Of a stretch of 34,470 nucleotides of DNA, positions 1,504 through 31,689 are shown in pieces. Position numbers and translations under genes: made by a program. The notes beneath the pieces are model-generated. The model saw only the letters and a program-made list of their open reading frames with translations, was not told where the DNA came from and searched no databases. This DNA comes from Planctomycetales bacterium (lineage in GTDB: Bacteria; Planctomycetota; Planctomycetia; Pirellulales; JAEUIK01), in the NCBI GenBank assembly GCA_020426575.1, contig JAGQPT010000270.1, forward strand, positions 1-34,470, written 5' to 3'. Positions within the stretch are counted from its first letter, which is position 1; every line of letters starts with the position of its first letter.

Positions 1504-3582
1504 ATGTCTTCAGCCCTTTCCATCTCGATCGGCCCGCGCCATCGTCCCTGGCACATGGCGCTATTCGCCGTAACAGCGGCGATTGCAGTCCGCGCCTGGA
1601 GCGACGTGCCGTCGCGGGCCGACGAGCCGGCACCTGTTGCCTCGGCTGACGCAGCTGCCGACGGTGAGGCGCCGGCGGGCGGCGACGCGCCCGCCAATGA
1701 CAACGCAGCCGTTGAGGCGGCCACGGCCGAAGACTTCTTCGCCGAGTCGCTCCAGCCGTTGATTGCCGCACATTGTCTTTCCTGCCACAGCGGTGACGAC
1801 GCCGAGGCGGGCATCTCCCTGGACGCGTATGCCGACGTGGAAGCGATGCGGGCGGCTCGCGAAACCTGGCAACGAGTAGCTCGCGCCCTGGGCGACGGCA
1901 TCATGCCGCCGAAGGACGAGCCGCGCCCCGAGCACGATCACGTCACGCGCACCGTGGCTTGGATCACGACGGAGTTGGACCGTGTCGACTGCAGCCAGGG
2001 CGTCGACCCGGGGCAGGTGACGATCCATCGGCTTAACCGCGTCGAATACAACAACACGATCCGCGACCTGACCGGTTTAGACGTTTCGCCGGCCGACGAT
2101 TTTCCGTCGGACGACGTGGGCTACGGTTTCGACAACATGGCCGACGTGCTTTCGCTGCCTCCAGTGCTGTTGGAGAAATACCTGGCGGCCGCCGAGACGG
2201 TCGCGCAGGCCGCGGTCATCGATCCGGATGACGCAGACTCCCCTGCCGCTGCCATGGCCGACACCGTCGCCGACGCGGAGGTGCACGCCGGCATCATGGC
2301 CGTCTCGGATACAAGCGCGGCGGACGCCGTGCGCGCGGAAGAAATCCTGCGACGGTTCGCCACACGGGCCTTTCGACGACCGGTCGACGAGGAAACACTC
2401 GACCAGCTCGTGGGAATCGCCGAAGCGACGACCGCGGCGGACGCGAGTTTCGAACGCGGCATCCAGGTCGCGATCCAGGCCGTGCTCGTTTCGCCACGGT
2501 TTCTCTTCCGGCTGGAACTCGACCCGACCGACGTCGAGCCGGGAAGTATCTACCGAATCGACGCCTACGACCTGGCTGCCCGGCTGTCGTATTTCCTCTG
2601 GAGCACGATGCCCGACGAACAACTCTTCGCGGCGGCGGCCGATGGCTCGCTCCACGATCCAACGGTCTACGCCTCGCAGGTGCGACGACTGCTGGCCGAC
2701 GAGCGGTCACAGGCGCTGGTTGACAACTTCGCGATGCAGTGGCTCCAGCTCCGCAAGCTCGACACGGTGCAGCCGGACCGCGAGCGCTTCCCGGCGTTCG
2801 ACGACGAGCTGCGCGAGGCGATGTGGCAGGAAACGCGGATGTACGTGACGTCGATCGTCCGCGAAGACCGCAACCTGCTCGAACTGATCGATTCGGACTA
2901 TACGTTCGTCAACGAAGCGCTGGCGGCGCATTACGGGATCCCAGGAGTGGCAGGAAGCACAATGCGGCGCGTGAGCGTCGACGCGGCTCAGCGCGGCGGC
3001 GTGTTGACGCAGGCGAGCGTGCTTACCGTCACGTCGAATCCGACGCGAACGTCGCCGGTGAAGCGCGGTCGCTGGGTGCTCGAACAAATCCTGGGGACGC
3101 CTCCCCCGCCCCCGCCGGCTGACGTACCGCCACTCGAAGAATCGGCCCAACTGACGGGCACGCTGCGCGAGCGGCTCGAACAGCACCGCGCCGACCCAAG
3201 TTGCGCCTCGTGCCACAAGCTGATGGACCCGCCGGGTTTTGGACTGGAGAACTACGATGCCGTGGGAGGGTGGCGCACGACCGACGGCGACGACCCGATC
3301 GACGCATCGGGCGAAATGTCCGACGGCGAAACGTTTTCAGGCCCGGCCGGTTTGAAACGTCTGTTGCTCGGCAAGAAGGAGTTGTTTCTGCGGGCCATCA
3401 GCGAGAAAATGCTGACGTACGCCCTGGGGCGGGGCCTGGAGTACTACGACCGCTGCGCGGTGGACGAAATCGCGGCCGCCGTGAACAATGACCCCGAGCA
3501 TCGTTTTTCGACGCTGATCCTGGCGATCGCGCACAACGATGCATTTCAAAAACGTCGTGCCCGAGGAGCCGAGGATGATTGA
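1504..3582 (+). CDS. Secreted cytochrome-c-like PSD protein (DUF1587/1595/1592/1588/1585)
   Basis: 692 residues from ATG 1504. An N-terminal hydrophobic segment (HMALFAVTAAIAVRAW, residues about 17-32) is followed by an Ala/Asp-rich stretch, indicating export. A CxxCH motif (HCLSCH, C91/C94/H95) opens a short cytochrome-like domain. The PSD modules follow in the usual order: PSD3/DUF1587 (about 173-237, HRLNRVEYNNTIRDL), PSD5/DUF1595 (about 281-345, RRFATRAFRRPVDEETL), PSD4/DUF1592 (about 351-480, YDLAARLSYFLWSTMPDE), PSD2/DUF1588 (from about 498, TSPVKRGRWVLEQILGTPPP) and PSD1/DUF1585 (about 620-692). A second CxxCH (C567/C570/H571) lies between PSD2 and PSD1. These proteins are a planctomycete hallmark of unproven function; heme binding and a role in breaking down complex carbohydrates have been suggested. 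The stop overlaps the next start by 8 bp, so the two genes are very likely co-translated. Confidence 0.9.
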   Translation: MSSALSISIGPRHRPWHMALFAVTAAIAVRAWSDVPSRADEPAPVASADAAADGEAPAGGDAPANDNAAVEAATAEDFFAESLQPLIAAHCLSCHSGDDAEAGISLDAYADVEAMRAARETWQRVARALGDGIMPPKDEPRPEHDHVTRTVAWITTELDRVDCSQGVDPGQVTIHRLNRVEYNNTIRDLTGLDVSPADDFPSDDVGYGFDNMADVLSLPPVLLEKYLAAAETVAQAAVIDPDDADSPAAAMADTVADAEVHAGIMAVSDTSAADAVRAEEILRRFATRAFRRPVDEETLDQLVGIAEATTAADASFERGIQVAIQAVLVSPRFLFRLELDPTDVEPGSIYRIDAYDLAARLSYFLWSTMPDEQLFAAAADGSLHDPTVYASQVRRLLADERSQALVDNFAMQWLQLRKLDTVQPDRERFPAFDDELREAMWQETRMYVTSIVREDRNLLELIDSDYTFVNEALAAHYGIPGVAGSTMRRVSVDAAQRGGVLTQASVLTVTSNPTRTSPVKRGRWVLEQILGTPPPPPPADVPPLEESAQLTGTLRERLEQHRADPSCASCHKLMDPPGFGLENYDAVGGWRTTDGDDPIDASGEMSDGETFSGPAGLKRLLLGKKELFLRAISEKMLTYALGRGLEYYDRCAVDEIAAAVNNDPEHRFSTLILAIAHNDAFQKRRARGAEDD

Positions 3583-4927
3583 AAGCCGACGCATCAACCG
3601 CCGCACTGTGCTCAAGGGACTCGGCACCGCGGTGGCGCTGCCGATGCTCGACGTGATGCGACCGCTCGCGGCGGCTGCCTCTGAGGCGAGCGCCACGGCG
3701 GCACCGGTTCGCGCGGCGTTCATCTACGTTCCCAATGGCATGCAGATGTCCGCCTGGACGCCGGCAACCGAAGGCGGCGACTTTGTGCTGCCGTACATCC
3801 TCGAACCGCTCGCCAAGGTGCGCGAGAAGTTTTGCGTGCTCAGCGGACTGGCGCATGATAAGGCGCGGGCCAACGGTGATGGTGGCGGCGATCACGCGCG
3901 CAGCGCCGCCACGTTCCTCACCGCCTGCCAGGCGTACAAGACCGACGGCGCCGACATACACGTCGGCCGATCGGTCGACCAGATTGCCGCCGCCGAGATT
4001 GGCGCCGCCACGCGTTTCGCTTCGATCGAAGTCGGCTGTGACAAGGGCGCACAGTCAGGCAATTGCGACACGGGGTACAGTTGTGCCTATTCGTCGAACC
4101 TCTCTTGGCGCACCGAGTCGATGCCGCTGGCCAAGGAGGTCGATCCCCGGTTGATCTTCGACCGACTGTTCGGCAACGACGCGGCTCCCGAGCTGGCGGA
4201 AGTGCGCGTGCGGCGCGACCGCGATCGCCGCAGCATCCTCGACTTCGTGCTGGGAGACGCCCAACGACTCAGCAAGCAGCTTGGCCGCAACGACCGCCGC
4301 AAACTCGACGAGTATCTCGGCTCGATCCGCGACGTGGAAACACGGATTGGCCGCTACGAAACACTGGCGGCTGAGGACCGCCCCGAGTTGGCCCGCCCGA
4401 GTGGCATCCCCGAAGACTACGCCGAGCACCTGCGGATCATCGGCGACTTGCTGGTGCTCGCCTTCCAGGGCGACCTGACGCGGGTGGGGACGTTCATGTT
4501 CGCCAACGCGGGCAGTAACCGTGCCTATCCCCAGATCGACGTTCCCGAGGGGCATCACAGCTTGTCGCACCACGGCGGCGACGAAGAAAAACAACGCAAG
4601 ATCAGCGAAATCAATCGCTTCCACGCCACGCAGTTGGCCTACTTGCTCGAACGGCTCGACAGCGTGGCCGAGGGCGACGGTACGCTGTTGGACAACTCGA
4701 TGATCGTCTACGGCAGCGGCATCGGCGACGGCAATCGCCATAACCACGACGACTTGCCGGTTCTACTGGCTGGTCGCGGCGGCGGCACGATCGCCAGTGG
4801 TAGACACATCCGCTATGCCGATCAGACGCCGATGGCCAACCTCTACGTAGCGCTGTTGGAACGTATGGGCGTGGCGGCTGAAACGCTGGGCGACTCGACG
4901 GGCCGACTCGACGGCCTGCAGGGGTGA
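3575..4927 (+). CDS. DUF1552 family secreted protein, Tat-type signal
   Basis: 450 residues, the usual length for DUF1552 (PF07586). The start at ATG 3575 follows a GAGGAG ribosome-binding site and lies inside the end of the PSD gene (overlap 3575-3582). The N-terminus NRRTVLKGLGTAVALPMLD carries a twin-arginine-type motif (R9, R10) and hydrophobic core, so the protein is probably exported folded by Tat. Conserved family segments include FIYVPNGMQMSAWTP, LSGLAHDKARANGDGGGDHA, and near the C-terminus VYGSGIGDGNRHNHDDLPVLLAGRGGG. The last segment, with its GDGN and HxHDDLP residues, resembles alkaline-phosphatase/sulfatase-fold DUF1501 and DUF1552 proteins. The biochemical activity is unknown. 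Constant pairing with PSD proteins in planctomycetes implies a shared periplasmic complex or substrate. Confidence 0.9.
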   Translation: MIESRRINRRTVLKGLGTAVALPMLDVMRPLAAAASEASATAAPVRAAFIYVPNGMQMSAWTPATEGGDFVLPYILEPLAKVREKFCVLSGLAHDKARANGDGGGDHARSAATFLTACQAYKTDGADIHVGRSVDQIAAAEIGAATRFASIEVGCDKGAQSGNCDTGYSCAYSSNLSWRTESMPLAKEVDPRLIFDRLFGNDAAPELAEVRVRRDRDRRSILDFVLGDAQRLSKQLGRNDRRKLDEYLGSIRDVETRIGRYETLAAEDRPELARPSGIPEDYAEHLRIIGDLLVLAFQGDLTRVGTFMFANAGSNRAYPQIDVPEGHHSLSHHGGDEEKQRKISEINRFHATQLAYLLERLDSVAEGDGTLLDNSMIVYGSGIGDGNRHNHDDLPVLLAGRGGGTIASGRHIRYADQTPMANLYVALLERMGVAAETLGDSTGRLDGLQG

Positions 4928-9384: not shown

Positions 9385-12252
9385 CTAGTCGGCGAAGACG
9401 ACGGTCGGTTCGTCGCGCGTGACCGGTGTCGAGAGGTCGTCGCTGGCCAATTCGACGCGCAAGCGTGATTCGCCGGCGCGAACGGCCTCGACCTCGACAG
9501 TGAACGTGGTGTCCGCCCGAGGCGCCAGTCGCGGGATCGGATCGAACACGACACGATCGGCCGCGACTGTGTGGCGCACCGGCCCGCTGGCGTCGATCGC
9601 CTGCATGGTCGGCGGAATCACGGCCGTGACGCGGACGTTGCTGGCGGCCTTCGAGCCCTGGTTGACGACGCGAATCTCGTAGGCGGTGCGGCCCCCCACT
9701 TCCACGGGGTCCTGCACGTCGCGCACTTCGAACGAGACGGCTGCCAGACCTTCGATGTCGATCGTCTGCGACAGTTCGGCTCGCAGGCCCTGGGGCGTGG
9801 TGCTTTCGACGATGAGCGGATGGGCCCCCTCTTTGACCGCCCGGGCGCTGAGTTTCACGTCAGCCGGCTGCTGCGGCGGCAACTCCGTCAGCAACCAATG
9901 CACGGTGCGCGTCGTGGGGTCGTAGTAGCCGGCGTTGTTGGCGTCGACAAACTCGAGCCCGTCGGGAACGTGGGCCGCCAACTGTACGTCGTGGGCCGTC
10001 GCCGTACCGGGATTGTGCAGCGTGAGCGTGAACGTTCCCTCGCGCTGCAGGTAGCGCTGCGTGGGCCCCTCGAAACGGACCTCGAGCTTCGGCGCGACCA
10101 CCTCGACGCGGCTGGTCTCTTCGGCGGTGAAGTCACCGGCGGCGTAGGCAACGAGCCGGTTGTCCGTAACGCCCGCCTTGGTGGCGGTGAGCATGAGGTC
10201 GAGCTCGCGAACCTGCTTGGGGCCGAGATCACCAACGTCGTAGACCAAGCGCTGACCGCCGGGATGGTCGAACAACTCGGGGACGTACTCTTCGAGCCGC
10301 ACGGCATGGGCGACGCCCGTCCCCACGTTGGAGATCTTGATGACCAGTCGGGCCAGGCTGCCCACCAGCACTTCTTCCGGCGCCGCCGCTTCGATCTGCA
10401 ATTGGGGCTTTGTCACCGTGGCTCGGGCCGTCGACTCGGCGCCGACCAAGACGCGCGCCACGCTGCCCATGTCGCCTTCTACCTCGGGAACGATCTCCAT
10501 CTCGAGCTGGCGTTCTTCACCGGGTTCGAGGCTGCCGAGGGACCAGACGATCCGGCCGCCGTCGTTCTGCGCCTGGGGGTGCGTGCGCGAGAGCGTGGCG
10601 CCACGCGGCACTTCGTCGTGCACTTCGACACCATGGGCCGTCACTTGTCCGGTGTTACGGACAAAAATCTCCCAAATGGCGGGGCGACCAACCTGTGCTT
10701 CGACCGGTGCCCGCTTTTCGATACTGACACTCGCCTGCTGGACGCCTTCGAGCTGTGCGGGACCAGGCTGACCATGCCCCGACTCTGCCGACACGCCGAC
10801 TTCGGACGACCGCGCCGCCTGAGCCGTCGTATCGCCGAACGGCTGAGACACACCGACCGACTCGTGGGCCGAGGCGCCGGCTGGGCGGGTGAAGGCATGT
10901 GCTGTCGGTGGTGCTTCAGTCGAGTCGGCAACGTCGCCGTATTGCGACCCGCTGGATGACCGGCCATAAGATTGCTCGTCGTACGGCTGTTTGTCATAGG
11001 GCTGTTCACTGATGGGCTGCTGGCCGTATGGCTGTTGGTCGTACGACTGCGCAGCGTAAGAAGGCTGTTGGCCCACGTCGCTTCTCGTGTCGGCGGTGCT
11101 TGATTCGTAAGCGTTTGAACCGTGGGCGTTTGTGGCGTAGGCGTCGGCGCCATACGTGCCCCCGCCATATGGTCCCGTGACATCACCATTCGTGGCTGCG
11201 GTGTCGGCAGCAACGTCGTCGAGTGGTGCGGCCGGGGCGGCGCTGGGGCGTGTGACCGGTTCGAGCGGAGCGGCCGCGGCGCCGTATTGTGGACGTAGCG
11301 GATTGCCGCCGTCGCGCGCCATCGAGTTCCCGGCGGCCGCGTTTTCGTAGGGTCCACCGATTTCGGACGGGGCCAATTCATCAGCACCGTAGGCCGAGGC
11401 CGCATTCACGTCGACGTCTGCGTCGGCCGCGTTCGCCGCCAGGGCGCCCACGGCGGCACCCACACCGGTCGCCAGCGCAGCGCCTGCCGCGCCGCCACCG
11501 TCCGGCGCATGTTGGTCGCCGTATTGTTGCCCGTACTGGTCGTAGGCACCGGTGCTTGCGCCGGCACCGCTGGGTTCGGCGGCAGCCGCGGCGTACTGAC
11601 CCGAATCGGTATACTGGCCCGAGCCGTAACTGTCGCCATACGGCTGAGCGGCATACTGGTCGCCGGACGGCGGCTGAGCGTATGCACCACTCGATGCGGT
11701 GACGTCATCGTGAGGGGGCAACAAGTCTTCCCGCGGCGGCAGCATGTCAGCGGCCTCGCCCAGGGCGTGTGCATCGACCGGCGGCGTCAGTTCGTTCAGC
11801 GCCGATTCGGTCATTTCGACCGCTGCGGACGTCACGTCGGCCATCTCGCCGGGCGGCTCGGTTTCGACCGGCTGGATGCCGGCAAACGCAGCCGCGGCCG
11901 TGGGAATTCCCGAGACGTCGCCGCCGGAGGCGCCAGCGCCATAAGAACCGGCGGACGTGGCGTTGCCGTACGAGTTGGCCATCGGGGCAACACCTGACCG
12001 GGCAAACGGGTCGGGGGCTGCGTCCGGCGGGTCGGTCGACTCGCCGAGTGCATCGTCGTCAGTCTGGGAGGTCGCATCCGTCTGTGCCGTCGCGTCGGCT
12101 TGAACCTCGCCGCTCGGCGGTTCGGCATCGCTGACTTGTTCGCTGTCGCCGCCACCGAAGTAGCCCGTGGTCCATGCCACGCCGCCGGTGCCGCCGGCGG
12201 TGATCGTACTGATGGCGGCGGCAATCAACGACCATTTCTTTGACTTGATCAT
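9385..12252 (-). CDS. DUF11-repeat surface protein with Tyr/Gln/Gly-rich low-complexity region
   Basis: 955 residues. The start at 12252 (MIKSKKWSLIAAAISTITAG) gives a basic N-terminus followed by a hydrophobic signal-anchor; the open frame beyond it to 12450 is not protein-like. Residues about 35-500 are low complexity: an acidic Asp/Thr/Gln-rich part, then Tyr/Gly/Ser/Gln-rich stretches such as QPYGDSYGSGQYTDSGQYAA and hexapeptide-like repeats (YDQQPYGQQP, SEQPYDKQPYDEQSYG). Residues about 508-955 form four DUF11-type beta-sandwich repeats of about 105-118 residues, each with the pattern V.N.G...A..V...VP.G (for example VRNTGQVTAHGVEVHDEVPRG, LHNPGTATAHDVQLAAHVPDG). DUF11 repeats are typical of secreted or cell-wall proteins, and many planctomycete surface proteins carry them. 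Probably an anchored envelope protein; its partner is unknown. Confidence 0.85.
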   Translation of the reverse strand: MIKSKKWSLIAAAISTITAGGTGGVAWTTGYFGGGDSEQVSDAEPPSGEVQADATAQTDATSQTDDDALGESTDPPDAAPDPFARSGVAPMANSYGNATSAGSYGAGASGGDVSGIPTAAAAFAGIQPVETEPPGEMADVTSAAVEMTESALNELTPPVDAHALGEAADMLPPREDLLPPHDDVTASSGAYAQPPSGDQYAAQPYGDSYGSGQYTDSGQYAAAAAEPSGAGASTGAYDQYGQQYGDQHAPDGGGAAGAALATGVGAAVGALAANAADADVDVNAASAYGADELAPSEIGGPYENAAAGNSMARDGGNPLRPQYGAAAAPLEPVTRPSAAPAAPLDDVAADTAATNGDVTGPYGGGTYGADAYATNAHGSNAYESSTADTRSDVGQQPSYAAQSYDQQPYGQQPISEQPYDKQPYDEQSYGRSSSGSQYGDVADSTEAPPTAHAFTRPAGASAHESVGVSQPFGDTTAQAARSSEVGVSAESGHGQPGPAQLEGVQQASVSIEKRAPVEAQVGRPAIWEIFVRNTGQVTAHGVEVHDEVPRGATLSRTHPQAQNDGGRIVWSLGSLEPGEERQLEMEIVPEVEGDMGSVARVLVGAESTARATVTKPQLQIEAAAPEEVLVGSLARLVIKISNVGTGVAHAVRLEEYVPELFDHPGGQRLVYDVGDLGPKQVRELDLMLTATKAGVTDNRLVAYAAGDFTAEETSRVEVVAPKLEVRFEGPTQRYLQREGTFTLTLHNPGTATAHDVQLAAHVPDGLEFVDANNAGYYDPTTRTVHWLLTELPPQQPADVKLSARAVKEGAHPLIVESTTPQGLRAELSQTIDIEGLAAVSFEVRDVQDPVEVGGRTAYEIRVVNQGSKAASNVRVTAVIPPTMQAIDASGPVRHTVAADRVVFDPIPRLAPRADTTFTVEVEAVRAGESRLRVELASDDLSTPVTRDEPTVVFAD

Positions 12253-12316
12253 GCGTGCACCTGTCCGTGGATTCCGCTTTTGAGGCCCGCCCGCTGTGTG
12301 TGAGGAGCGATCTGCA

Positions 12317-12360
12317 GCGATGCCGGGGGGATGTCGAGACCGTCCGAGTGCTGGCATCGC
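12317..12360 (-). other. Perfect 8-bp inverted repeat upstream of the DUF11 gene
   Basis: GCGATGCC (12317-12324) and GGCATCGC (12353-12360) are exact reverse complements separated by 28 bases, 65-108 bases upstream of the DUF11 start codon in its presumed leader or promoter. A role as an mRNA stem or protein-binding site is inferred only. No clear promoter boxes are seen in this 264-bp gap. Confidence 0.3.
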
Positions 12361-12516
12361 GGCGCGAGGCGGAGTGTTTTGCGACGCGTAGGTAACACAT
12401 TCCCCGCGACGCGAGAAGATCAGTTCACCCGCCGCGGCCACGCACCGCACGTGCTAGCAGTTGATGCCTTCGTCGTGTGGCGAGGCAGAGTTCGCCGAAG
12501 CGCCAGGCGTGGAACT

Positions 12517-14289: not shown

Positions 14290-15474
14290 ATGAAGATTGC
14301 CTACCTTGACTGTTCGAGTGGTATCAGCGGCGACATGACGCTCGGCGCGCTGATCGACGCAGGCGCCGACCTGGCCGCCGTGCAGCGCGGCATCGACTCG
14401 CTGGGGCTGCCGAGTTGCACCTTGCGGACCGAGGAAGTCAAGAAGAAGGGCTTCCGCGCCACACAGCTCACGGTCGAGCATGAACCGGAGCACGCCCATC
14501 GCCACCTCAGCCACATCGAGAAAATGATCGACGGCAGCGAGCTGTCACCCAGGCAGCGCGAACTGGCGCTGCGCATCTTCCGCCGGCTCGGCGAGGCCGA
14601 AGCCAAGGTGCATGGCACGACGATCGAAAAGGTCCACTTCCACGAAGTCGGGGCGGTCGATTCGATTGCCGACATTGTCGGTGTGGCGATCGCCTGGGAC
14701 CTGTTGGGGATCGAACGGGCCGAGGCGTCGGCCGTGCCGACCGGCTGCGGCGAAATCACGATCGCCCACGGTCGTTGCAAGGTGCCCGCTCCGGCCACGG
14801 CCGAGTTGCTGCGCGGTGTGCCGCTGGCGGGCAGTTCGATCGAGGCCGAGTTGACGACGCCCACCGGTGCCGCCATCCTCGCCGCGCTGGTCGAATCGTT
14901 CGGCCCACCGCCGAGCATGACGATCGACGCGATCGGCTACGGCGCCGGACAGCGCGACCTGGAAGAACAGGCCAATTTGCTGCGGCTGCTCCTCGGCACG
15001 GCAAGCGCATCCGCCAGTGGCGACACCGTCTGGGTGCTGGAGACGAACCTTGACGACGTGACGGGCGAGATCATCGGCCATTGTACGACTCGCCTGCTGG
15101 ACGCCGGTGCGCTGGACGTCTACACGACCGCGATCCAGATGAAGAAGAACCGGCCGGCGGTCAAACTCTCGATTCTCTGTGACGACGAGCATCTGGCCGA
15201 GTTGGAGCGGATCGTGTTTGCCGAGACCGCCACGTTGGGTATCCGCCGGTGGCGCACCGAGCGCGACACGATGCGGCGCGGCGAGCACACGGTCGCGACG
15301 CAATTCGGTGACATCACCGGCAAATTGCGCTGGCAGAGCGCCAGCGACGTGACGTTTCATCCCGAGTACGACGATTGCCAGCGTCTGGCCACCGAACACA
15401 ACGTGGCGCTCAGCGTCGTGCAGCGGGCGGCCCGACGGGCCTTTCGCGCCAGCGACGTAACCGCGGACGAATGA
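14290..15474 (+). CDS. larC: LarC, nickel-pincer cofactor nickel-insertion protein
   Basis: 394 residues. LarC (DUF111) inserts nickel into pyridinium-3,5-bisthiocarboxylate mononucleotide in a CTP-dependent reaction, finishing the nickel-pincer cofactor used by lactate racemase and related LarA enzymes. The N-terminus MKIAYLDCSSGISGDMTLGA is the family signature. Further conserved stretches are the His-rich EHEPEHAHRHLSHIEKMI (about 58-75), VHFHEVGAVDSIADIVG, PTGCGEITIAHGRCKVPAPATAELL, TPTGAAILAALV, GYGAGQRDL and, in the C-terminal CTP/nickel domain, ETNLDDVTGEIIGH, DVYTTAIQMKKNRPAVKLSILC and TLGIRRWRTERDTM. Both halves are in one continuous frame, unlike the Lactobacillus plantarum gene, where a ribosomal frameshift joins them. 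No larA, larB or larE is in the window, so the client enzyme must be encoded elsewhere. Confidence 0.95.
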   Translation: MKIAYLDCSSGISGDMTLGALIDAGADLAAVQRGIDSLGLPSCTLRTEEVKKKGFRATQLTVEHEPEHAHRHLSHIEKMIDGSELSPRQRELALRIFRRLGEAEAKVHGTTIEKVHFHEVGAVDSIADIVGVAIAWDLLGIERAEASAVPTGCGEITIAHGRCKVPAPATAELLRGVPLAGSSIEAELTTPTGAAILAALVESFGPPPSMTIDAIGYGAGQRDLEEQANLLRLLLGTASASASGDTVWVLETNLDDVTGEIIGHCTTRLLDAGALDVYTTAIQMKKNRPAVKLSILCDDEHLAELERIVFAETATLGIRRWRTERDTMRRGEHTVATQFGDITGKLRWQSASDVTFHPEYDDCQRLATEHNVALSVVQRAARRAFRASDVTADE

Positions 15475-19286: not shown

Positions 19287-19468
19287 GGTGCGGTTGTAGC
19301 GGTCCGAGCGGTGGGGAAAACGGGACTGGCGCTCGCGGCCGTGCGGCGCCGATGCTGACGATGCGATGTCGTATGGTTTTCGGGCGGACGGTTGGTTCGA
19401 TTTCCCGATGGCCAGTATGCAGCGACACGGACGGTCGCGCCTCAACATGCTTGTTGTGTGAGACGGTG

Positions 19469-22132
19469 ATGTCCATCGTAGCGTCCTGGCTGATTTTAGC
19501 GAGTGTGTTGACCGCGCACAGCGGGGCAGCGGCGTCGGCCGCGGCGGACCTGACCGGCGTGCGCTATCCCGCCGCAGTGGAACTCTTCCACTGCGACTTC
19601 GATCCGGCCGAGGTCGACCGCGACCAGGACGGTTGGCCGCAAGACTGGCGGCGGCGCACCGGCGTGGGTTACCCCCATTACGTCGACATGGAAGTGGTCG
19701 AAGCACCGTCGCCCGGCAACGACCACTGCCTGCGAATCGCGCTCGACGGCGGGGCTGCCACGGCGTACAGCCCGCCGGTCGACGTGAGCATGCTGAGCAG
19801 TTACGTCGTCGAGGGTTGGCTGAAGACCGACGGTCTGGTGCACGATGAGGCGCTCCTGTCGGTGACGTTGCTCGACGCCCAGCGGCACCCGCTCGAACGG
19901 TTCGAGTCGCGCGTGTTGCGACACTCCGAAGATTGGGTGAAACTGCGCATCGGCCCGTTCGCACCGGCTTCGGCCGCGGCCGTTGCGGCAGTGATTGGAA
20001 TCGAAGTGCGTCCGGGCAGTGAAGAGGACCTGACCGGCACGGTGTGGTGCGACGACGTCTGGATGGGCCTGTTGCCACGTGTGACGCTCGACACGTCCCC
20101 CTCGCGGCGCTGGATCACGCCGGAGGAAGACATTGAAGTCGTCTGCGCGGTCTCAGGGGCGCTGAGTCCCGATGCCGTGTGCACGTTCCGCATCGAAGAC
20201 GCGCTGGGCGAAGTGCTGGAAAGCCACGAGCAGCGTCTCAGCGAAAATGACGATTTCGGCGACGGTTTTGGCGACGCGCCACCGGGGACCATTGCACGCG
20301 GCACTTCGACGCTGGCGTCGCTCAAGCGCACGTTCCGAATGCGACCACAGCTCGACCGCACAGGGCTGTACCGCGTGTATGCTCACCTGCACGGCGGCGA
20401 CGGGTTGAGTGTCGAGCATGAGCTCAATATTGCCGTCACCGACGACGCGGCCAACGGCGCGGGCGGCGAATTCGGCTGGAGCCTGCCACGCGGCGACACC
20501 CCGCTTTCGCAGGCCGAACTGCTGATGCTCGCCAGCCAGGTGGGCATCGGCAAGATTAAGTACCCGGTGTGGGTCGACCCGGCCAACAGCGAAGCGCTGG
20601 AACAACTCGCCTGGTTCGTCGAGCGGCTGAACAGTCGCGGCGTCGAGGTGATCGGGCTGTTGCAGGACCCGCCGCAAGCAGTGATTGACGCGCTGCCGGT
20701 GAACGCTCGCTGGCAGGCGGCGGACGTCTTCACGGCGCCGCCGGAGTCGTGGTACCCGTCGCTCGAACCAGTGGTGTCGCGGCTGGCGATGCGCGTGCGC
20801 CAGTGGCAATTGGGAGGTGATTACGACCAGAGTTTTCAAGGGGCGGCGGGGATCGAGCCGCTGTTGCTGACCGTGCGCCGCCGACTAGACGAAGTCGGCC
20901 AGGGGGTGCAACTCGGCGTGGGCTGGAACTGGCTTGAGCAACTGCCCCAGTGGACCGACTCGACGGCGTACGCCGTGAGCCTGTCGGCCCAACCGCCGCT
21001 CACGCACACGGAACTCGCCGAACAACTCGCCGCCGTCGCCCACGATCCGACGACGCGCTGGATCGACGTGACGCCGCTTCGGCGCGACGAATACACGACC
21101 GAGGCGCGTGCCCGCGACCTGGTGCTGCGGATGGCAGCAGCGAAGGTGCACGGCGCCAACGGCATCTTTTTGTCAGACCCGTTCGACGCCCAGCGCGGCG
21201 TGCTGACCCCCGAGGGCAACCCGGCAGAGTTGATCTTCGCCTGGCGCACGACGGCGCGACTGCTGGCCGGCGCCGAGTACCTGGGCGAGATGCAACTGCC
21301 CGGCGGCAGCCGTAACCACGTCTTTGCCCGCGGTGACGAAACGGCAATGCTCGTCTGGTCTGATGGCGCCGTGGCCGAGGAAGTGTTGTACCTGGGAGAA
21401 GCGCCGCGGTGGGTCGACGTTTGGGGCCGCAACGGTCCGGTGAGCGAGATTGCCGGGCGCCACGTCATCGAGGTTTCCAACGTGCCGCGCTTTGTCACAG
21501 GGCTCGATCAGCGCGTGACCCGATTGCGGATGGCCGTGCAGCTCGAGCCCGTGGCACTTGCGCCGAGTTACGGACGACCGCAACGGTGCCAGTTGACGCT
21601 GCACAACCCGCTGGAAGACGGGGTGAACGCCCACGTGCGGCTGGAGTTACCGACGCGTTGGAAGTGCACGCCCGAGGAGTTCGACCTGACGCTGGCGGCC
21701 CACGCCAAGGACGAAGTCCCGCTGGAGATCATGCTGCCGGTCGGCGCGAGCGCCGGTGTGCATCAGGTCCGCGCCGACGTGCAGCTCGCATCCGACCGGG
21801 AGTACCGCTATAGCGTTTACCGCACCCTCGAAGTCGGTGACGGGCGGCTCACGATCGACGTTGCCACGCGAACCACGCCGGACGGCGACCTCGTCGTCGA
21901 ACAATTGCTGACGAACCACAGCGACGACGTGGTGTCGTTGCGCTGCTATCTGCGTGGGGCCGACATGCACTTCGAGTCGCGCCAGGTGCGCGACTTTGGA
22001 CCTGGCATCAATGCCCAGCAGTACGTCGTTGCCGGCGGCGCCAATCGCGTGGGACAGTCGATGCTGATCCAGGTGAGCGAGGTGTTGGGCGACAGCCGCA
22101 CGCTCTACCACTGGTTCACCGTCGAACCGTAA
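19469..22132 (+). CDS. Large secreted protein with carbohydrate-binding-like and NEW3-like domains
   Basis: 887 residues from ATG 19469, which opens a clear signal peptide (MSIVASWLILASVLTAHSGAAA). Residues about 35-220 form a beta-rich region resembling a carbohydrate-binding jelly roll (ELFHCDFDPAEVDRDQDGWP, CLRIALDGGAATAYSPPVDV, VRPGSEEDLTGTVWCDDVWMG). A linker and Ig-like part follow (about 215-330). The central part, about 335-560, alternates helices and strands in a TIM-barrel-like way (GIGKIKYPVWVD, FVERLNSRGVEVIGLLQDPP, VGWNWLEQLPQW) with no definite catalytic pair. The C-terminal region (about 695-790) has a NEW3/alpha-galactosidase-associated look (CQLTLHNPLEDGVNAHVRLE, LPVGASAGVHQVRADVQL). 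Probably a periplasmic or extracellular polysaccharide-acting or binding protein. It diverges from the isomerase-like gene across a 182-bp gap. Confidence 0.75.
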   Translation: MSIVASWLILASVLTAHSGAAASAAADLTGVRYPAAVELFHCDFDPAEVDRDQDGWPQDWRRRTGVGYPHYVDMEVVEAPSPGNDHCLRIALDGGAATAYSPPVDVSMLSSYVVEGWLKTDGLVHDEALLSVTLLDAQRHPLERFESRVLRHSEDWVKLRIGPFAPASAAAVAAVIGIEVRPGSEEDLTGTVWCDDVWMGLLPRVTLDTSPSRRWITPEEDIEVVCAVSGALSPDAVCTFRIEDALGEVLESHEQRLSENDDFGDGFGDAPPGTIARGTSTLASLKRTFRMRPQLDRTGLYRVYAHLHGGDGLSVEHELNIAVTDDAANGAGGEFGWSLPRGDTPLSQAELLMLASQVGIGKIKYPVWVDPANSEALEQLAWFVERLNSRGVEVIGLLQDPPQAVIDALPVNARWQAADVFTAPPESWYPSLEPVVSRLAMRVRQWQLGGDYDQSFQGAAGIEPLLLTVRRRLDEVGQGVQLGVGWNWLEQLPQWTDSTAYAVSLSAQPPLTHTELAEQLAAVAHDPTTRWIDVTPLRRDEYTTEARARDLVLRMAAAKVHGANGIFLSDPFDAQRGVLTPEGNPAELIFAWRTTARLLAGAEYLGEMQLPGGSRNHVFARGDETAMLVWSDGAVAEEVLYLGEAPRWVDVWGRNGPVSEIAGRHVIEVSNVPRFVTGLDQRVTRLRMAVQLEPVALAPSYGRPQRCQLTLHNPLEDGVNAHVRLELPTRWKCTPEEFDLTLAAHAKDEVPLEIMLPVGASAGVHQVRADVQLASDREYRYSVYRTLEVGDGRLTIDVATRTTPDGDLVVEQLLTNHSDDVVSLRCYLRGADMHFESRQVRDFGPGINAQQYVVAGGANRVGQSMLIQVSEVLGDSRTLYHWFTVEP

Positions 22133-22253
22133 CGTCGAGCCGGTGCCGTGCCGTCGTCTTGGTGGGGACGCCGCGAAGCGGTAGGCTGGGCGGTGGGGTG
22201 AAACCGGATTCATGTCACCGGCTACGGTGATCGTCAACGTGGACGAGGGCGTC

Positions 22254-23066
22254 ATGCACACCGTCGGGTCGATCAGCGAGTTCCTCGAGGCATACGCGCC
22301 GCCGTCGCTGGCCGAGGATTGGGACAACGTGGGCCTACTGGTCGGCGATCCAGGACAGACGGTCCAGCGCGTGATGACCTGCCTGACGATCACGCCCGAG
22401 AGCGCCGACGAGGCAATCGCCGACGGGGTCAATATGATTGTCACGCACCACCCCCTGCCGTTTCGTCCGCTGCGGCGACTCACGACCGAGTCGCACGAGG
22501 GGCGCCTGCTCTGGCAACTGATGAGCGGCGGCGTGGCCATCTACAGCCCGCACACGGCGTTCGACTCGTGCCGACGGGGCATCAATCGGCAGTTGGCCGA
22601 GGGAATCGCCCTGCGCGACGTGCATCCGCTGGTGCCGGTGGAAAATGAAAGCAACAACGGAGCGGACGTGGACGTCACGATGGGAGGCGGACGGCACGGC
22701 ACGCTCGATGCGCCGCTGGAGTTAGCCGCACTGGCGGGACGGCTCAAGGCGTTTCTCGCCGTCGATCGGGTACAGCTCGTGGGAGAACCGACCCGGGCGC
22801 TGCGGCGCGTGGCCGTCGCCTGCGGGAGCGCCGGAACGTTTCTCCAGCCAGCGATTGCAGCGGGTTGCGAAGCCCTGGTGACGGGCGAGGTGAGCTTCCA
22901 CACCTGTCTCGAGGCTCAGGCGGCCGGTGTGGCGCTGATCCTGTTGGGCCACTATGCCAGCGAGCGATTCGCCGTCGCGGGGCTCGCCGATGTGCTCGCC
23001 GAGGCGTTTCCCGAACTGTCCGTCTGGGCAAGCCGCCACGAGCAGAACCCGCTGCAGTGGTACTGA
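22254..23066 (+). CDS. NIF3-like dinuclear metal-centre protein (DUF34/YbgI family)
   Basis: 270 residues from ATG 22254, where the family usually begins (MHTVGSISEFLEAYAPPSLAEDWDNVGLLVGD) and where GAGGG lies five bases upstream; ATG 22212 is an in-frame alternative adding 14 residues. NIF3 proteins form toroidal hexamers with two metal ions per subunit. A GTP cyclohydrolase I type 2 activity is annotated by homology in many genomes but is disputed. Metal-site residues are present: THHPLPF with H65 and H66, YSPHTAFDSC with its His and Asp, and GHYASERFAV near the C-terminus with His and Glu. The protein is full length for the short form, without the inserted PII-like domain. The gene is 121 bp downstream of the large secreted protein gene. 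Confidence 0.92.
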   Translation: MHTVGSISEFLEAYAPPSLAEDWDNVGLLVGDPGQTVQRVMTCLTITPESADEAIADGVNMIVTHHPLPFRPLRRLTTESHEGRLLWQLMSGGVAIYSPHTAFDSCRRGINRQLAEGIALRDVHPLVPVENESNNGADVDVTMGGGRHGTLDAPLELAALAGRLKAFLAVDRVQLVGEPTRALRRVAVACGSAGTFLQPAIAAGCEALVTGEVSFHTCLEAQAAGVALILLGHYASERFAVAGLADVLAEAFPELSVWASRHEQNPLQWY

Positions 23067-23393: not shown

Positions 23394-24215
23394 ATGAGTC
23401 GTTTCATCACCGTCTTGCCCGTTTACAACGAACGCGCGCACATTGTCGAAGTGCTGGATGAAGTGCGCCGCTACAGCCCCCACGTTCTGGTGGTCGACGA
23501 CGGCTCGACTGACGGCAGTCGAGAAGTTCTGCGCCAGTACGTGGCCAACAGCGATCGGGTAGCGACGGTTCGGCACACGACAAACCAGGGCTACGGCGCG
23601 GCCCTGCGGACAGGGTTCGAGTACGCCATCGCCCGCGACTATGACGTCGTTGTCACGATCGACTGTGACGGTCAGCATCAACCACGGCGCGTTCCGGAAT
23701 TCGTCGCCGCGTGCGAGTCGGCTGACATTGTCTCGGGAAGTCGTTATCTGGAAACGTTCGCCGCGGATGCCGACGCGCCCGAAGATCGCCGGCGGATCAA
23801 TCGGCTCGTGACCGAAGAACTGAATCGTCGCCTGGGACTCGAACTGACCGACGCCTTTTGCGGGTTCAAGGGCTACCGGGTCGACGCGCTCCGTAAGTTG
23901 CAGATCACCGAGACCGGTTACGCGATGCCGCTCGAGTTGTGGGTCCAAGCGGTCCACCACGGGCTGACGATCACCGAACTGGCCGTGCCGCGCATCTATC
24001 TGGAAGAGGAGCGATCGTTCGGCGGTTCGCTGGACGACGCCACGACGCGACTGGCGTTTTATCGCGACGTGCTCGACCGCAGCATGGCGGCCGTCTCCAT
24101 GACCGCACCGGTTGAGACGTCGCGGACCACGCGGCGACACACGCCGGCCAAACCGCCGATCAGCGGTGCGTTCAGCGACGAGTCGACGAGGATGTGCGGA
24201 AGGGCGTGTTCATGA
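23394..24215 (+). CDS. Glycosyltransferase family 2 (dolichol-phosphate-mannose-synthase-like)
   Basis: 273 residues from ATG 23394, with GAGAGGAAG about nine bases upstream. GT-A fold, using a nucleotide-sugar donor. Motifs: VLPVYNERAHI (7-17), VVDDGSTDGS (33-42), NQGYGAALRTGFEYAI (64-79), the metal-binding D90-C-D92 in TIDCDGQHQP, and CGFKGYRVDALRKL with an acceptor-side segment GYAMPLELWVQAVHHGL. The catalytic part resembles DPM/polyprenyl-phosphate glycosyltransferases, but no transmembrane helices follow. Instead there is a hydrophilic tail of about 40 residues (TSRTTRRHTPAKPPIS), so the enzyme is probably soluble or peripheral. The stop codon overlaps the start of the next gene as ATGA (24212-24215), suggesting translational coupling and a shared pathway. 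Confidence 0.9.
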   Translation: MSRFITVLPVYNERAHIVEVLDEVRRYSPHVLVVDDGSTDGSREVLRQYVANSDRVATVRHTTNQGYGAALRTGFEYAIARDYDVVVTIDCDGQHQPRRVPEFVAACESADIVSGSRYLETFAADADAPEDRRRINRLVTEELNRRLGLELTDAFCGFKGYRVDALRKLQITETGYAMPLELWVQAVHHGLTITELAVPRIYLEEERSFGGSLDDATTRLAFYRDVLDRSMAAVSMTAPVETSRTTRRHTPAKPPISGAFSDESTRMCGRACS

Positions 24216-25858
24216 CGCAGAGTGGCTCGTCGATGGAATACCGGCGGCTGCGGGCGCCGCGCCACGACCGCGGGATTCTGATCGAGCCAGCCCTCGAACA
24301 GGTCGGCGAAGTGCTCGGCGCCAACGCCGAGTCCCAGCGCTCGTCGACATGCCAGATTGGGGACCGTTGCATCCGCGAGCTCGCCAGATCGGCTCGCCAG
24401 ACGACGATCGCGGCCGCACTCGGCTACACGGCCGCCTACCGAGACGTGCCCGACGTTGGCGCGGACGCGGCGGAGCGGTTGTTCATGGCCGGACACCAGC
24501 CGCAGTTGTTCCATCCGGGCGTCTGGTTCAAGAACTTCGTGCTCGACCGCCTGACGCGGCAATACGGCGGCGTCGCCGTCAACCTGGTGATCGACAACGA
24601 CACGGCCAAGGCGGCCTCGATCCGCGTGCCGGGGGGATCGGTCCGGCGTCCCACGGCTTCGGCCGTGGCCTTCGACACCTCGTCGATGCCGATCCCGTTT
24701 GAAGAGCGCGACGTGCACGACTGGGCCACGTTCGAGAGTTTCGCCCAGCGGGTCGGCGACGAAATCGCGCCACTTGTCGACGATCCGATGGTGCGCGACT
24801 TTTGGCCGGCGGTCGTCGAGCGGGCACGCGCCACCGGGAGGCTCGGATTGGCGCTCGCCCAAGCGCGGCACGCTCTCGAGGGGCGCTGGGGCACCGACAC
24901 CCTGGAAGTACCGCTGAGCACAGTGACCGATTCGGCCGCCTTCTGGTGGTTGGCCGCCCACCTGCTGTGCGAACTACCCCGGCTCTTCGATGTCTATAAC
25001 CGGACGGTGCTCGCCTATCGCCGCGTGAACCATATCCGCAGTGCCAACCACCCGGTCCCGCTCTTGGAGCGGTCGGGCGACTGGACCGAGGTGCCGCTCT
25101 GGGTGTGGACGGACGAGAATCCGCGCCGCCGCCACCTGTTTGCGCGTCGGGTCGGGGGCGAATTGGAGTTGGGTGATCGCGGGAAGATCGCGGCAAGAGT
25201 GCCCTTGGGCAGCGGGGGAGATTGGTCGGCGACGGCCGCCGCACTGGGCGAACTCGGCCAGCGGGGGATCAAGGTGCGCCCTCGGGCCCTGGTGACCACG
25301 CTATTCGCCCGGCTATTTCTCACCGACATGTTCATGCACGGGATCGGCGGATCGAAGTACGACGAACTGACCGACGCAATTCTGCGAGATTTCTTTCACG
25401 TCGAGCCGCCGATCTACGCCACGGTTTCGGCGACGCTCAAGCTGCCGATTGAGCGTCCCAGCGTCAGCAGCGACGATCTGGCCGACGTGGTCGACGCGCT
25501 GCGTCAGATGACGTATCACCCGGAACGAGTTCTCACCGACCAGCATGTTGCGGTGAGTGGGCCCGACGCAGCGGCGGCGGAGCAAATCGACGAAATGATC
25601 GAGGAAAAACGGCGTTGGCTGGCGATCGAGCCGAATCGCGAGAACGCGCGGCAGCGTTGTCACGGCATCCGCGCCGCCAACGACGCGCTGCAGCCGTGGC
25701 TCGACGCGCAGCGCCGCGAGTTGATCGAACGACGGGAGGAATTGTCCGCCCAACTCCGCGCCGAATCGATCCTTGGCTCCCGTGACTACGCCTTCTGCCT
25801 GTTCCCCCGGAAAAAAATCGAGGGATTTATGCTGGAATTTGACAGCGGAACTGCGTAA
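24212..25858 (+). CDS. BshC-related protein of unknown function
   Basis: 548 residues. ATG 24212 overlaps the glycosyltransferase stop (ATGA) and has GGAAGGG seven bases upstream. By eye the protein follows the layout of BshC, the cysteine-adding enzyme of bacillithiol synthesis. AGHQPQLFHPGVWFKNFVLDR (from residue 93) corresponds to the GxQxGLxxGPLYTxxK region; VNLVIDNDTAK to the following strand with its acidic loop. RPRALVTTLFARLFLTD and IGGSKYDELTDAILRDFF (about 356-396) correspond to the RPxxQxxxLP and GGPxExxYWxQL segments. The C-terminal region (about 450-530) is a charged coiled coil (QIDEMIEEKRRWL, LDAQRRELIERREELSAQL), as in BshC. Identity is low and no bshA/bshB genes are in the window, so the activity is open. 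Length matches BshC (about 540). Confidence 0.55.
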   Translation: MTQSGSSMEYRRLRAPRHDRGILIEPALEQVGEVLGANAESQRSSTCQIGDRCIRELARSARQTTIAAALGYTAAYRDVPDVGADAAERLFMAGHQPQLFHPGVWFKNFVLDRLTRQYGGVAVNLVIDNDTAKAASIRVPGGSVRRPTASAVAFDTSSMPIPFEERDVHDWATFESFAQRVGDEIAPLVDDPMVRDFWPAVVERARATGRLGLALAQARHALEGRWGTDTLEVPLSTVTDSAAFWWLAAHLLCELPRLFDVYNRTVLAYRRVNHIRSANHPVPLLERSGDWTEVPLWVWTDENPRRRHLFARRVGGELELGDRGKIAARVPLGSGGDWSATAAALGELGQRGIKVRPRALVTTLFARLFLTDMFMHGIGGSKYDELTDAILRDFFHVEPPIYATVSATLKLPIERPSVSSDDLADVVDALRQMTYHPERVLTDQHVAVSGPDAAAAEQIDEMIEEKRRWLAIEPNRENARQRCHGIRAANDALQPWLDAQRRELIERREELSAQLRAESILGSRDYAFCLFPRKKIEGFMLEFDSGTA

Positions 25859-25908
25859 CCTGTTGGCATTGAAGGATCAAGCCAGTTATCGAAGAAGGGA
25901 TTCGATCG

Positions 25909-27363
25909 ATGAGCACGATGTCTTCGGCGGTTGCTGAGGTCGGTTCGGTTCGTGTGTCATCTCGCAAGGCTCTCGGGCGCAAGTCTTCGCGTCCTGTCGT
26001 TGCGAACGTTCTGCCATCCGCGGCAACGGTGCCGCCTCCCGTGCTGGAGCGACATTCGGCCGTATTGTGTCCGCTCCCCTGTGGCACGGCTCCGCGATTG
26101 GCATTTGGCACGGCGGGTGACCACCCCGTAGTCAGCCAGATGCTCTGCGACGTGTTCAACGGCTCGGCCCAAGCGGCATTTCCGGCGACGCTCGACGATC
26201 CGCACTACGAGCCCTGTGACCGGCTGCTGGTCAAAGGCGGGCCCCGGATTCTGGCCCATCTGCAGATGACGCGGCGGGTCCTGCAATTCGGCCCGCTGCG
26301 TCACGGAGTCTCCGGGCTACAACACTTCGCGACGCTCCCGGAGCATCGCCAGCGGGGTTACGGCCGCACGCTTTTGGGACTGGCTGAGGACCTGATGGCC
26401 GAGGACGGTTCGGGGCTGGGCATCGTGCAGACGGCGGTACCGAAGTTCTTCTGCCGCCGGGGTTGGGCCGTCTGCGGGCGGCACTGCTATTCAAGGGCCG
26501 GCGTCCGCGACTTGTTGGCTCAACTGTCCGCCGACGGCACGCGGTGGCCCAAACACCCGCTGAAGATCCGTCCCTGGCGGCAGGTGGAACTGCCCGACCT
26601 GATGCGGCTGCACCGCCAGTGGAGCGACCAGTTCGACGGCGCCACGCAACGGACCGAGGCCTATTGGCGCTGGATCGTGGGCCGCGGCGACCACGACCGC
26701 ATCTTCGTGGCGATCGACGGTGCCGACCCTGCCGCGGCGGACGACGACGTGCCGTGCAATGCCAAGGAGTCGCAGATCGTCGGTTATCTGGTGATGCGTG
26801 ACGATCGCATTCTTGAGCTGGCGACCGATCCCGGCCACGCCACGGCGGCCCATGAACTGTTGGCGCGGGCGGCCAGCGAGGCGATCGAGCGTGACTGCCA
26901 CGTGATCACGCTGCTGGCGCCCCCGAACGACCCGTTGCACGAGACGTTCCGCCAGGCGCGGGGTACCTCGGTGCACAACGAAATCGATCAGGGCGAAGTC
27001 TTCATGATCAAGGTGCTCGACGTGCTGGACCTGATGCGGTCGATGTGCCCGTTGTTGCACGATCGGGCCGCCGCGGCCGGCATTACCCGACCGACCGAGT
27101 TCGCGATCGCCGCCGATGGTCAGCGTTACCGCGTGCTGCTGACGCGTCGCAGCGTGAAGGTGTCGCGCGAACGCAGCGGACGGCGCACCCTGACGTGCAG
27201 CGGCGCCGAGTTGACGCGGCTGCTGCTGGGCCACAACGGCATCGAGGAAGCCATCGACGCCGGCCGGGCCAAGGTCTCATCGCGCGTCGTCGCCGAGATC
27301 GTCTCAACCATCCTGCCCGCCCGCCCGCTCTGGTACACCCCCTGGGACTTCGGGCCGGTGTGA
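25909..27363 (+). CDS. Eis-like double-GNAT acetyltransferase
   Basis: 484 residues from ATG 25909, with GAAGGGA about nine bases upstream, 50 bp after the BshC-related gene and probably in the same operon. After about 60 low-complexity residues, domain 1 is a GNAT acetyltransferase: LQHFATLPEHRQRGYGRTLLGLAEDLM (from about 137), where Q-R-G-Y-G is the acetyl-CoA loop, then VPKFFCRRGWAVCGRH. Domain 2 (about 225-375) is a second, degenerate GNAT fold (IRPWRQVELPDLMRLHRQW, SQIVGYLVMRDDRILELA). The end (about 380-484, MIKVLDVLDLMRSMCPLL, LTCSGAELTRLLLGHNGIEEAI) resembles the sterol-carrier-protein-like C-terminal domain of Eis proteins. Eis enzymes acetylate amines, including aminoglycosides, with broad specificity, but the natural substrate here is unknown. 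Confidence 0.78.
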   Translation: MSTMSSAVAEVGSVRVSSRKALGRKSSRPVVANVLPSAATVPPPVLERHSAVLCPLPCGTAPRLAFGTAGDHPVVSQMLCDVFNGSAQAAFPATLDDPHYEPCDRLLVKGGPRILAHLQMTRRVLQFGPLRHGVSGLQHFATLPEHRQRGYGRTLLGLAEDLMAEDGSGLGIVQTAVPKFFCRRGWAVCGRHCYSRAGVRDLLAQLSADGTRWPKHPLKIRPWRQVELPDLMRLHRQWSDQFDGATQRTEAYWRWIVGRGDHDRIFVAIDGADPAAADDDVPCNAKESQIVGYLVMRDDRILELATDPGHATAAHELLARAASEAIERDCHVITLLAPPNDPLHETFRQARGTSVHNEIDQGEVFMIKVLDVLDLMRSMCPLLHDRAAAAGITRPTEFAIAADGQRYRVLLTRRSVKVSRERSGRRTLTCSGAELTRLLLGHNGIEEAIDAGRAKVSSRVVAEIVSTILPARPLWYTPWDFGPV

Positions 27364-31041: not shown

Positions 31042-31689
31042 CTAATCCGCGTCGTGGAGTTCGGGAAACACGTCGGGCGGTAGCCCTTGTTTTTTCACCG
31101 AACTGCGCAGCTTGGCGAGGAAATCGAACTTGTAGTTAGCAACCGTTTGTTCGCTGAGCCCCAGATGACTGGCGACGTGTTTATTGGCCCACCCGCGCAC
31201 GAAGAGCAATTCGGTGACGCGGATTTTTTCCCAATCGCCCCGCTCGCGCCAGCGCTCGACGTGGTGCGAGATCGCCTCGACCAGGGCCGACTCTTCCAGG
31301 CCGCGACGTTCGCCGCTGCGGACGATGCTGCTGGCGCGGCGAGCGCTGCCCGGCAGCTCACGAGCCGGCATTTCGCTGTTCGTTTCGGGTTGCAGCGGCA
31401 CGGTGGGACGGCGGCCTTCACGCCGCAGGTGGTCGGTGAGTTTGTGCGCAGCAATCGAGAACAGATAGCTCTCCAGCGAACGCGAACAGTCGTAGTTCGG
31501 CAGGCTGGTAAGAAACCCCACGAACGATTCCTGCACGACGTCTTCGGCCGACGCACGCTGGCCCAGGCGGCTATCGACGAAAGCCAAGAGCCGACCTTCG
31601 AAGCGGCCGATCAATTCGTCCCAGGCGTCTTCGTCGCCGTTGCGAATGCGGGCGACGAGCAACTGGTCGGCGTCGGGCGTTGGTGCCAT
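31042..31689 (-). CDS. ECF (sigma-70 family) RNA polymerase sigma factor
   Basis: 215 residues from 31689 (MAPTPDADQLLVARIRNGDEDAWDEL); no clear ribosome-binding site, but the start fits the family. Region 2 spans about 12-85: AWDELIGRFEGRLLAFVDSRL, SAEDVVQESFVGFLTSLPNYD (core-binding and -10 recognition helices) and SLESYLFSIAAHKLTDHLRR. A Pro/Arg/Ser-rich linker (about 88-125) leads to region 4 at about 150-200: IRVTELLFVRGWANKHVASHLGLSEQTVANYKFDFLAKLR, a helix-turn-helix for the -35 box. It redirects RNA polymerase to a stress or envelope regulon. It lies 40 bp downstream of the large membrane protein gene and 179 bp upstream of the partner gene, all in the same direction. Confidence 0.88.
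   Translation of the reverse strand: MAPTPDADQLLVARIRNGDEDAWDELIGRFEGRLLAFVDSRLGQRASAEDVVQESFVGFLTSLPNYDCSRSLESYLFSIAAHKLTDHLRREGRRPTVPLQPETNSEMPARELPGSARRASSIVRSGERRGLEESALVEAISHHVERWRERGDWEKIRVTELLFVRGWANKHVASHLGLSEQTVANYKFDFLAKLRSSVKKQGLPPDVFPELHDAD

Follow-up and report, generated by a model that had tools for sequence, protein, structure and literature searches.

Organisation of the locus

The window is the whole stretch of 34,470 nucleotides that was analysed. It comes from a planctomycete genome, and the relatives that have a name belong to the Pirellulales or to other planctomycete groups. The genes of interest are three consecutive reading frames and their upstream neighbour:

22212..23066, + strand: NIF3/DUF34 gene (PF01784, E 2e-72), the upstream neighbour in 24 of 68 loci
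23394..24215, + strand: GT2 glycosyltransferase, 273 residues (PF00535, E 1e-29), proposed to catalyze the first step
24212..25858, + strand: BSHCL, protein with a predicted BshC fold, 548 residues, proposed cysteine ligase
25909..27363, + strand: Eis-like GNAT, 484 residues, accessory, possible N-acyl capping enzyme

The name BSHCL designates the 548-residue protein of the window and its relatives. The positions of the three frames given in the initial annotation are correct: the stop of the GT2 gene and the start of BSHCL overlap in an ATGA (24212-24215), and 50 bp separate the end of BSHCL from the start of the GNAT gene (25909). The start of the GT2 gene (ATG, 23394) agrees with the start in its homologues. 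The NIF3/DUF34 gene is probably not part of the pathway discussed below.

The rest of the window contains a planctomycete-type gene pair (1228-4927), which encodes a PSD/PSCyt (DUF1587-1595) cytochrome protein and an HXXSHH (DUF1552) protein, a protein of about 1021 residues with DUF11/CARDB repeats (9385-12450), a LarC nickel-pincer cofactor protein which matches PF01969 over its full length (14290-15474), and an ECF-type sigma factor (31042-31689). The protein encoded at 19352-22132 has 926 residues and matches NPCBM_assoc weakly; it recurs upstream of NIF3 and the BSHCL locus in several relatives. A search of the window against Rfam gave no match.

Fold and homology of BSHCL

Searches of Pfam, NCBIfam and the PDB sequences with single BSHCL sequences or narrow profiles gave no match. 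The Pfam family of BshC, PF10079, matches neither the window protein nor any of 21 relatives, and none of the genomes of 20 BSHCL relatives has a match to it, even at E ≤ 10. The BshC-like layout that had been read from the sequence of the window protein is nevertheless upheld by structure prediction and by profile-profile alignments that were checked against shuffled controls.

The AlphaFold (AF2) model of the window BSHCL has a pLDDT of 90.3 and a pTM of 0.85. The first Foldseek match in the PDB is the BshC of B. subtilis (4wbd, E 6e-12), over the whole length; class I lysyl-tRNA synthetase comes second (1irx, E 2e-6), followed by other class I synthetases. The AF2 model built for L141, a deeply diverged relative (457 residues, 21% identical), gives an unchanged ranking, again with BshC 4wbd at the top (E 1e-12). 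The two independent models predict the same fold as that of BshC, a Rossmann core plus a coiled coil, so the BshC-like fold that was looked for is indeed found. The structural matches between BSHCL and BshC have a TM of about 0.5 and a high rmsd, about 11 Å, which means that the domain orientation differs or that the models are imperfect.

In hhalign comparisons with BshC, the narrow alignment A1 gave no significant result (probability 0.6, E 0.1), and only the broad alignment with deep members, A2, reached significance. A2 aligns end to end with 20 planctomycete BshCs (global E 9e-8, probability 92), and the 12 column-shuffled controls and the reversed one all gave E ≥ 0.05. An hmmsearch of A2 against the PDB sequences returned only coiled-coil noise. 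Nine residues are identical and conserved in both families (BSHCL in window numbering/BshC): G94/G90, Q96/Q92, K107/K105, D128/D134, D130/D136, R306/R294, R367/R336, G377/G352 and Y383/Y358. The GHQPQLF segment of BSHCL aligns on GQQ..L of BshC, and GGSKYDEL on GP.E..Y. These models and alignments show that BSHCL is a divergent homologue of BshC. H101-x-G103 of BSHCL, not found in BshC, is reminiscent of the HIGH motif in class I synthetases; one may guess that it marks BSHCL as an adenylating enzyme.

Distribution of BSHCL and its coupling to the GT2

BSHCL was found in 58/58 genomes of the order, across 20 families, as a single match in all but two, in which one gene is aligned in two pieces. 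BSHCL is a core gene of the order. A scan of species-representative genomes gave 479 stretches confirmed to encode relatives of BSHCL; the 80 that were kept are all labelled planctomycete, except one which is labelled "bacterium" only. BSHCL is present in 33 of 199 Planctomycetota genomes, a sample spread evenly over the phylum, and some of these genomes encode very divergent forms of 460-490 residues.

The initial annotation was right to call the first enzyme a GT2, and the gene-neighbourhood survey bears out its coupling to BSHCL: the GT2 gene lies directly upstream of BSHCL in 74 of the 77 named loci with room to tell (median identity 60%). In distant classes, whose BSHCL shares only 20-25% identity, the two genes are likewise adjacent. 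The adjacency of the GT2, BSHCL and GNAT genes is far beyond chance. Neither of the two outcomes that the initial annotation named as refuting, a predicted structure lacking a BshC-like fold or a lack of conserved synteny, was observed. In families f62 and f69 and in one genus of f21, the GT2 gene is not adjacent to BSHCL, and its orthologue is still present in the genome. Indeed, an orthologue scores 182-286 bits in 13 of 14 BSHCL genomes, unlinked cases included, compared to at most 92 bits in 8 genomes that have BshC. The GT2 and BSHCL form a unit.

Apart from the linkage of the deacetylase in f23 described below, no conserved neighbours of the unlinked GT2 or of the unlinked deacetylase were recognised. 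In the two f62 genomes viewed (L145, L146), the neighbours of BSHCL are a dCache membrane protein and a TIM-barrel protein similar to xylose isomerase. In f23 (L143:8758-9591, L315), a lipoprotein which resembles a periplasmic binding protein follows BSHCL.

DPM synthase (5mlz, 1e-20) and ArnC (1e-17 to 1e-19) are the nearest matches of the GT2 profile, and the best NCBIfam match of the GT2, PpgS, scores 101 bits, well under the cut-off of 370 for this polyprenyl/dolichyl-phosphate GT2 equivalog. This proximity to lipid-phosphate glycosyltransferases counts against a thiol pathway, and it makes a polyprenyl-phosphate acceptor possible. The GT2 could then make a polyprenyl-phosphate sugar to which, after deacetylation, the HUP-fold BSHCL would add an amino acid, yielding an envelope glycoconjugate and no small thiol. 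We consider this unlikely. No clear transmembrane helix was detected in 25 GT2 homologues (no KD19 window above 1.6) and none in the 19 BSHCL proteins examined; the GT2 is predicted to be soluble, although soluble DPM1-type enzymes exist, which weakens this argument. The partner deacetylase is of the BshB1 type, the conserved residues of BshC are kept in BSHCL, and the BSHCL genomes are devoid of the BshA/BshC thiol route.

A deacetylase encoded elsewhere in the genome

It had been noted that no deacetylase is adjacent to these genes. This is correct for the locus, but a deacetylase is not absent: a BshB1-type gene is present on another contig of the same genome. PIG-L proteins were found in 25/25 genomes tested, and one PIG-L protein of the BSHCL genomes carries an invariant GEPTP motif, present at 30/30 fetched deacetylase loci. 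The GEPTP deacetylase of the window's genome (G000:C501, 222 residues) scores 193.1 bits with the BshB1 model TIGR04001, over the cut-off of 182.5. This cut-off is likewise exceeded by four copies found in other BSHCL genomes, and two are just under it (168-180 bits).

A profile of the GEPTP deacetylase scores at least 309 bits in 31/199 genomes, every one a BSHCL carrier, compared to 240 bits for the best of the 166 non-BSHCL genomes, a gap which is inflated because 14 of the genomes that the profile finds had also served to build it. The two BSHCL carriers without the GEPTP deacetylase have genome completeness values of 83% and 86%. In the phylum sample, the distribution of BSHCL matches that of the GEPTP deacetylase almost perfectly. 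The two genes are unlinked in most genomes, which counts against the pathway proposed below; in f23 (one genus, four genomes), they are about 13-15 kb apart in all four.

Because the distribution is clustered on the species tree, one may ask whether the three genes are merely separate ancient genes, co-distributed by common descent and adjacent in an operon of unrelated functions. This explanation is very improbable. The adjacency of the GT2 and BSHCL survives in the very distant classes mentioned above, and a deacetylase of the GEPTP class occurs in no non-BSHCL genome. Moreover, the main BSHCL group of the RpoB tree does not include f51, f62 and f69 (two of the three are on weakly supported branches), and these families nevertheless carry the GT2, BSHCL and the deacetylase.

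The genome of the window encodes a second, longer PIG-L paralogue with a GEPTPR sequence (G000:C211; L261:472-1287), which scores 154.7 bits, below the BshB1 cut-off. Second copies in other genomes of the class score about 180-210 bits with profile A5. A possible role for this paralogue is that of an S-conjugate amidase, like Mca or BshB2.

Relation to the known bacillithiol genes

In the sample of 199 genomes, BshC is over its cut-off in 106 and BshA in 102, and bshC, bshB and bshA are close together in many BshC genomes. Bacilliredoxin (PF06491) is present in 92/199 genomes, nearly all of which have BshA/BshC. The 33 BSHCL genomes have none of these: BshC and BSHCL occur together in 0/199 genomes, BshA (TIGR03999, cut-off 273.7) is over its cut-off in 0/33, the best score in the genome of the window being 139 bits, and bacilliredoxin is found in 0/33. 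This agrees with the view of the initial annotation that the product would not be ordinary bacillithiol.

The nominal P of the zero overlap between BshC and BSHCL, 3e-13 under independence, overstates the case since the distribution is phylogenetically clustered. An RpoB tree of 27 genomes shows about three BshC/BSHCL changes, and a single split is not rejected (AU p 0.09). Many mutual replacements of the two proteins were considered, and are not supported by this tree. The exclusivity is consistent with functional replacement, but is not proof of it.

The presence of a BshB1-type deacetylase, the BshC fold and the fact that both routes occur in no genome would also fit a simpler scheme, where the GT2 makes GlcNAc-malate in place of BshA, BSHCL is a fast-evolving BshC, and the product is bacillithiol itself. 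We regard this scheme as improbable. The absence of bacilliredoxin from the BSHCL genomes is an argument that either the thiol or its redox partner differs. GT2 enzymes invert, whereas BshA (GT4) and MshA retain, so the glycosidic linkage at least should differ from that of bacillithiol, even if the acceptor is malate. The signature of the deacetylase, GEPTP, is also distinct.

One genome of family f52 (G151) encodes a BshC-family protein without the GQQ motif (L171:1009-2652). This genome has no BshA over the cut-off, and it is the one with the 240-bit non-BSHCL deacetylase. The protein is possibly an intermediate or a third variant.

The Eis-like GNAT

The third protein had been described as an Eis-like double GNAT and compared with MshD. 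The term "Eis-like" is fair as a tentative name: the protein matches PF13527 (Acetyltransf_9; 32.6 bits, cut-off 25), its C-terminus weakly resembles SCP2_2 (PF13530; 19.4 bits, below the cut-off of 23.2), and the best matches of its profile are Eis-like proteins and aminoglycoside acetyltransferases (3n7z, 2ozg, AAC(2')). The comparison with MshD is not supported by the profile search, in which no match is so named.

The GNAT gene is downstream of BSHCL in 39 of 69 loci, and it adjoins BSHCL in about half of the loci of the order. Among the 199 sampled genomes, only two, both of Pirellulales, gave a clear match to it, and one weak partial match lies elsewhere. As a core component, the GNAT is rejected, since it is essentially confined to the order and the only match beyond it is the partial one. 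An acylating last step is possible in the organism of the window and cannot be general.

The acetyl-CoA loop RxxGxG/A is present in 17 of 25 GNAT homologues, including that of the window. The strict motif is missing from the other eight; the BSHCL-adjacent GNATs without it include L067, L073, L087, L090, L097 and L103. This suggests that the loop-less GNATs have a changed or non-catalytic role.

Proposed pathway

We propose, with a probability of about 0.6, that the GT2, the BshB1-like deacetylase and BSHCL form a cytosolic, bacillithiol-like route of three steps to a thiol, Cys-GlcN-X. We infer the substrates, the product and the physiological role of this set by analogy with the routes to bacillithiol (BshA, BshB, BshC) and mycothiol (MshA to MshD) (PMC4360819). 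In the first step, the GT2 would act in place of BshA and move GlcNAc from UDP-GlcNAc onto a small acceptor, X. The GEPTP deacetylase (G000:C501), to which the second step is assigned by its family, would then free the amine to give GlcN-X. In the third step, the predicted fold and conserved residues of BSHCL suggest that it joins cysteine to the amine of GlcN-X, and the resulting Cys-GlcN-X would be a thiol of low molecular weight. Some of the Pirellulales may then use the Eis-like GNAT to acylate the amine of the cysteine, as MshD does in mycothiol synthesis; this is the weakest step.

Of the two kinds of product first envisaged, a glycoconjugate or a thiol, the analysis favors the thiol, as a predicted product. 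A bolder and more tentative version, to which we give somewhat less than even odds, is that several planctomycete classes make a new thiol, a cysteinyl-glucosaminide built by an inverting GT2, whose aglycone is neither malate nor inositol, and that, in part of the Pirellulales, an acyl cap is added to its cysteine, in convergence with mycothiol.

Hiras et al. (2018) listed the Planctomycetes among the lineages without a documented or predicted low-molecular-weight thiol (PMC6282198), and the main text of a survey of bacillithiol genes published in 2025 does not mention them (PMC12719100). Of the Planctomycetota genomes in the sample, roughly half encode bshA, bshB, bshC and bacilliredoxin, and another sixth the GT2/GEPTP/BSHCL set. 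The 2018 statement that no thiol is predicted is thus corrected twice, by the half with bshA/bshC and by the sixth with the new set. Full-text searches of the open-access literature found no paper describing this set. With three named genes, the question of the planctomycete thiol can be put to the test by bimane labelling of cultured strains, for example Blastopirellula marina (DSM 3645, locus L106).

Comparison with known systems

The window GNAT shares with Eis and Eis-like GNATs (3n7z, 3sxn) the GNAT part, and its C-terminus resembles SCP2 weakly. It differs in being beside a BshC-like gene and in the absence of the acetyl-CoA motif from 8/25 of its homologues.

The mycothiol pathway similarly combines a HUP-type ligase (MshC) with a GNAT (MshD), and the GNAT considered here could acylate a cysteine amine. 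However, the best structural match of BSHCL is BshC, class I LysRS ranks above CysRS, and the GNAT, besides being Eis-like, is not conserved. The second-best fold match is class I lysyl-tRNA synthetase (1irx), and the HxG that follows the first strand of BSHCL recalls HIGH/HIGN, but BshC is the better match and covers the full length, and the coiled coil of BSHCL is as in BshC.

BshA (TIGR03999, GT4) has the same proposed position as the GT2, the first one, that of glycosyl transfer, but the two enzymes are non-homologous. The PIG-L partner in the genome of the window is over the cut-off of BshB1 (TIGR04001). It carries GEPTP where neighboring bshB genes have GELGT or GEMGT, and it is not in an operon with the ligase.

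BshC (PF10079; 4wbd) remains the closest relative. The likeness includes the predicted overall fold, the C-terminal coiled coil, the collinear G-Q...K, DxD, R, R and G...Y, and the association with a glycosyltransferase and a BshB1-type deacetylase. On the other hand, the identity is only about 10%, BSHCL has no Pfam match, GHQ..HxG replaces GQQ..GP, GG..YD replaces GP.E..Y, an ExPxW is conserved in addition, and the operon partner is the GT2 instead of BshA. BSHCL adds a second family of the BshC type, which is very divergent and whose partner enzyme is fixed. As of 2015, the activity of BshC had not yet been shown in vitro (PMC4360819), a point against the role proposed for BSHCL. The reaction mechanism of BshC was unresolved at that date (PMC4360819), which is why this second family is useful.
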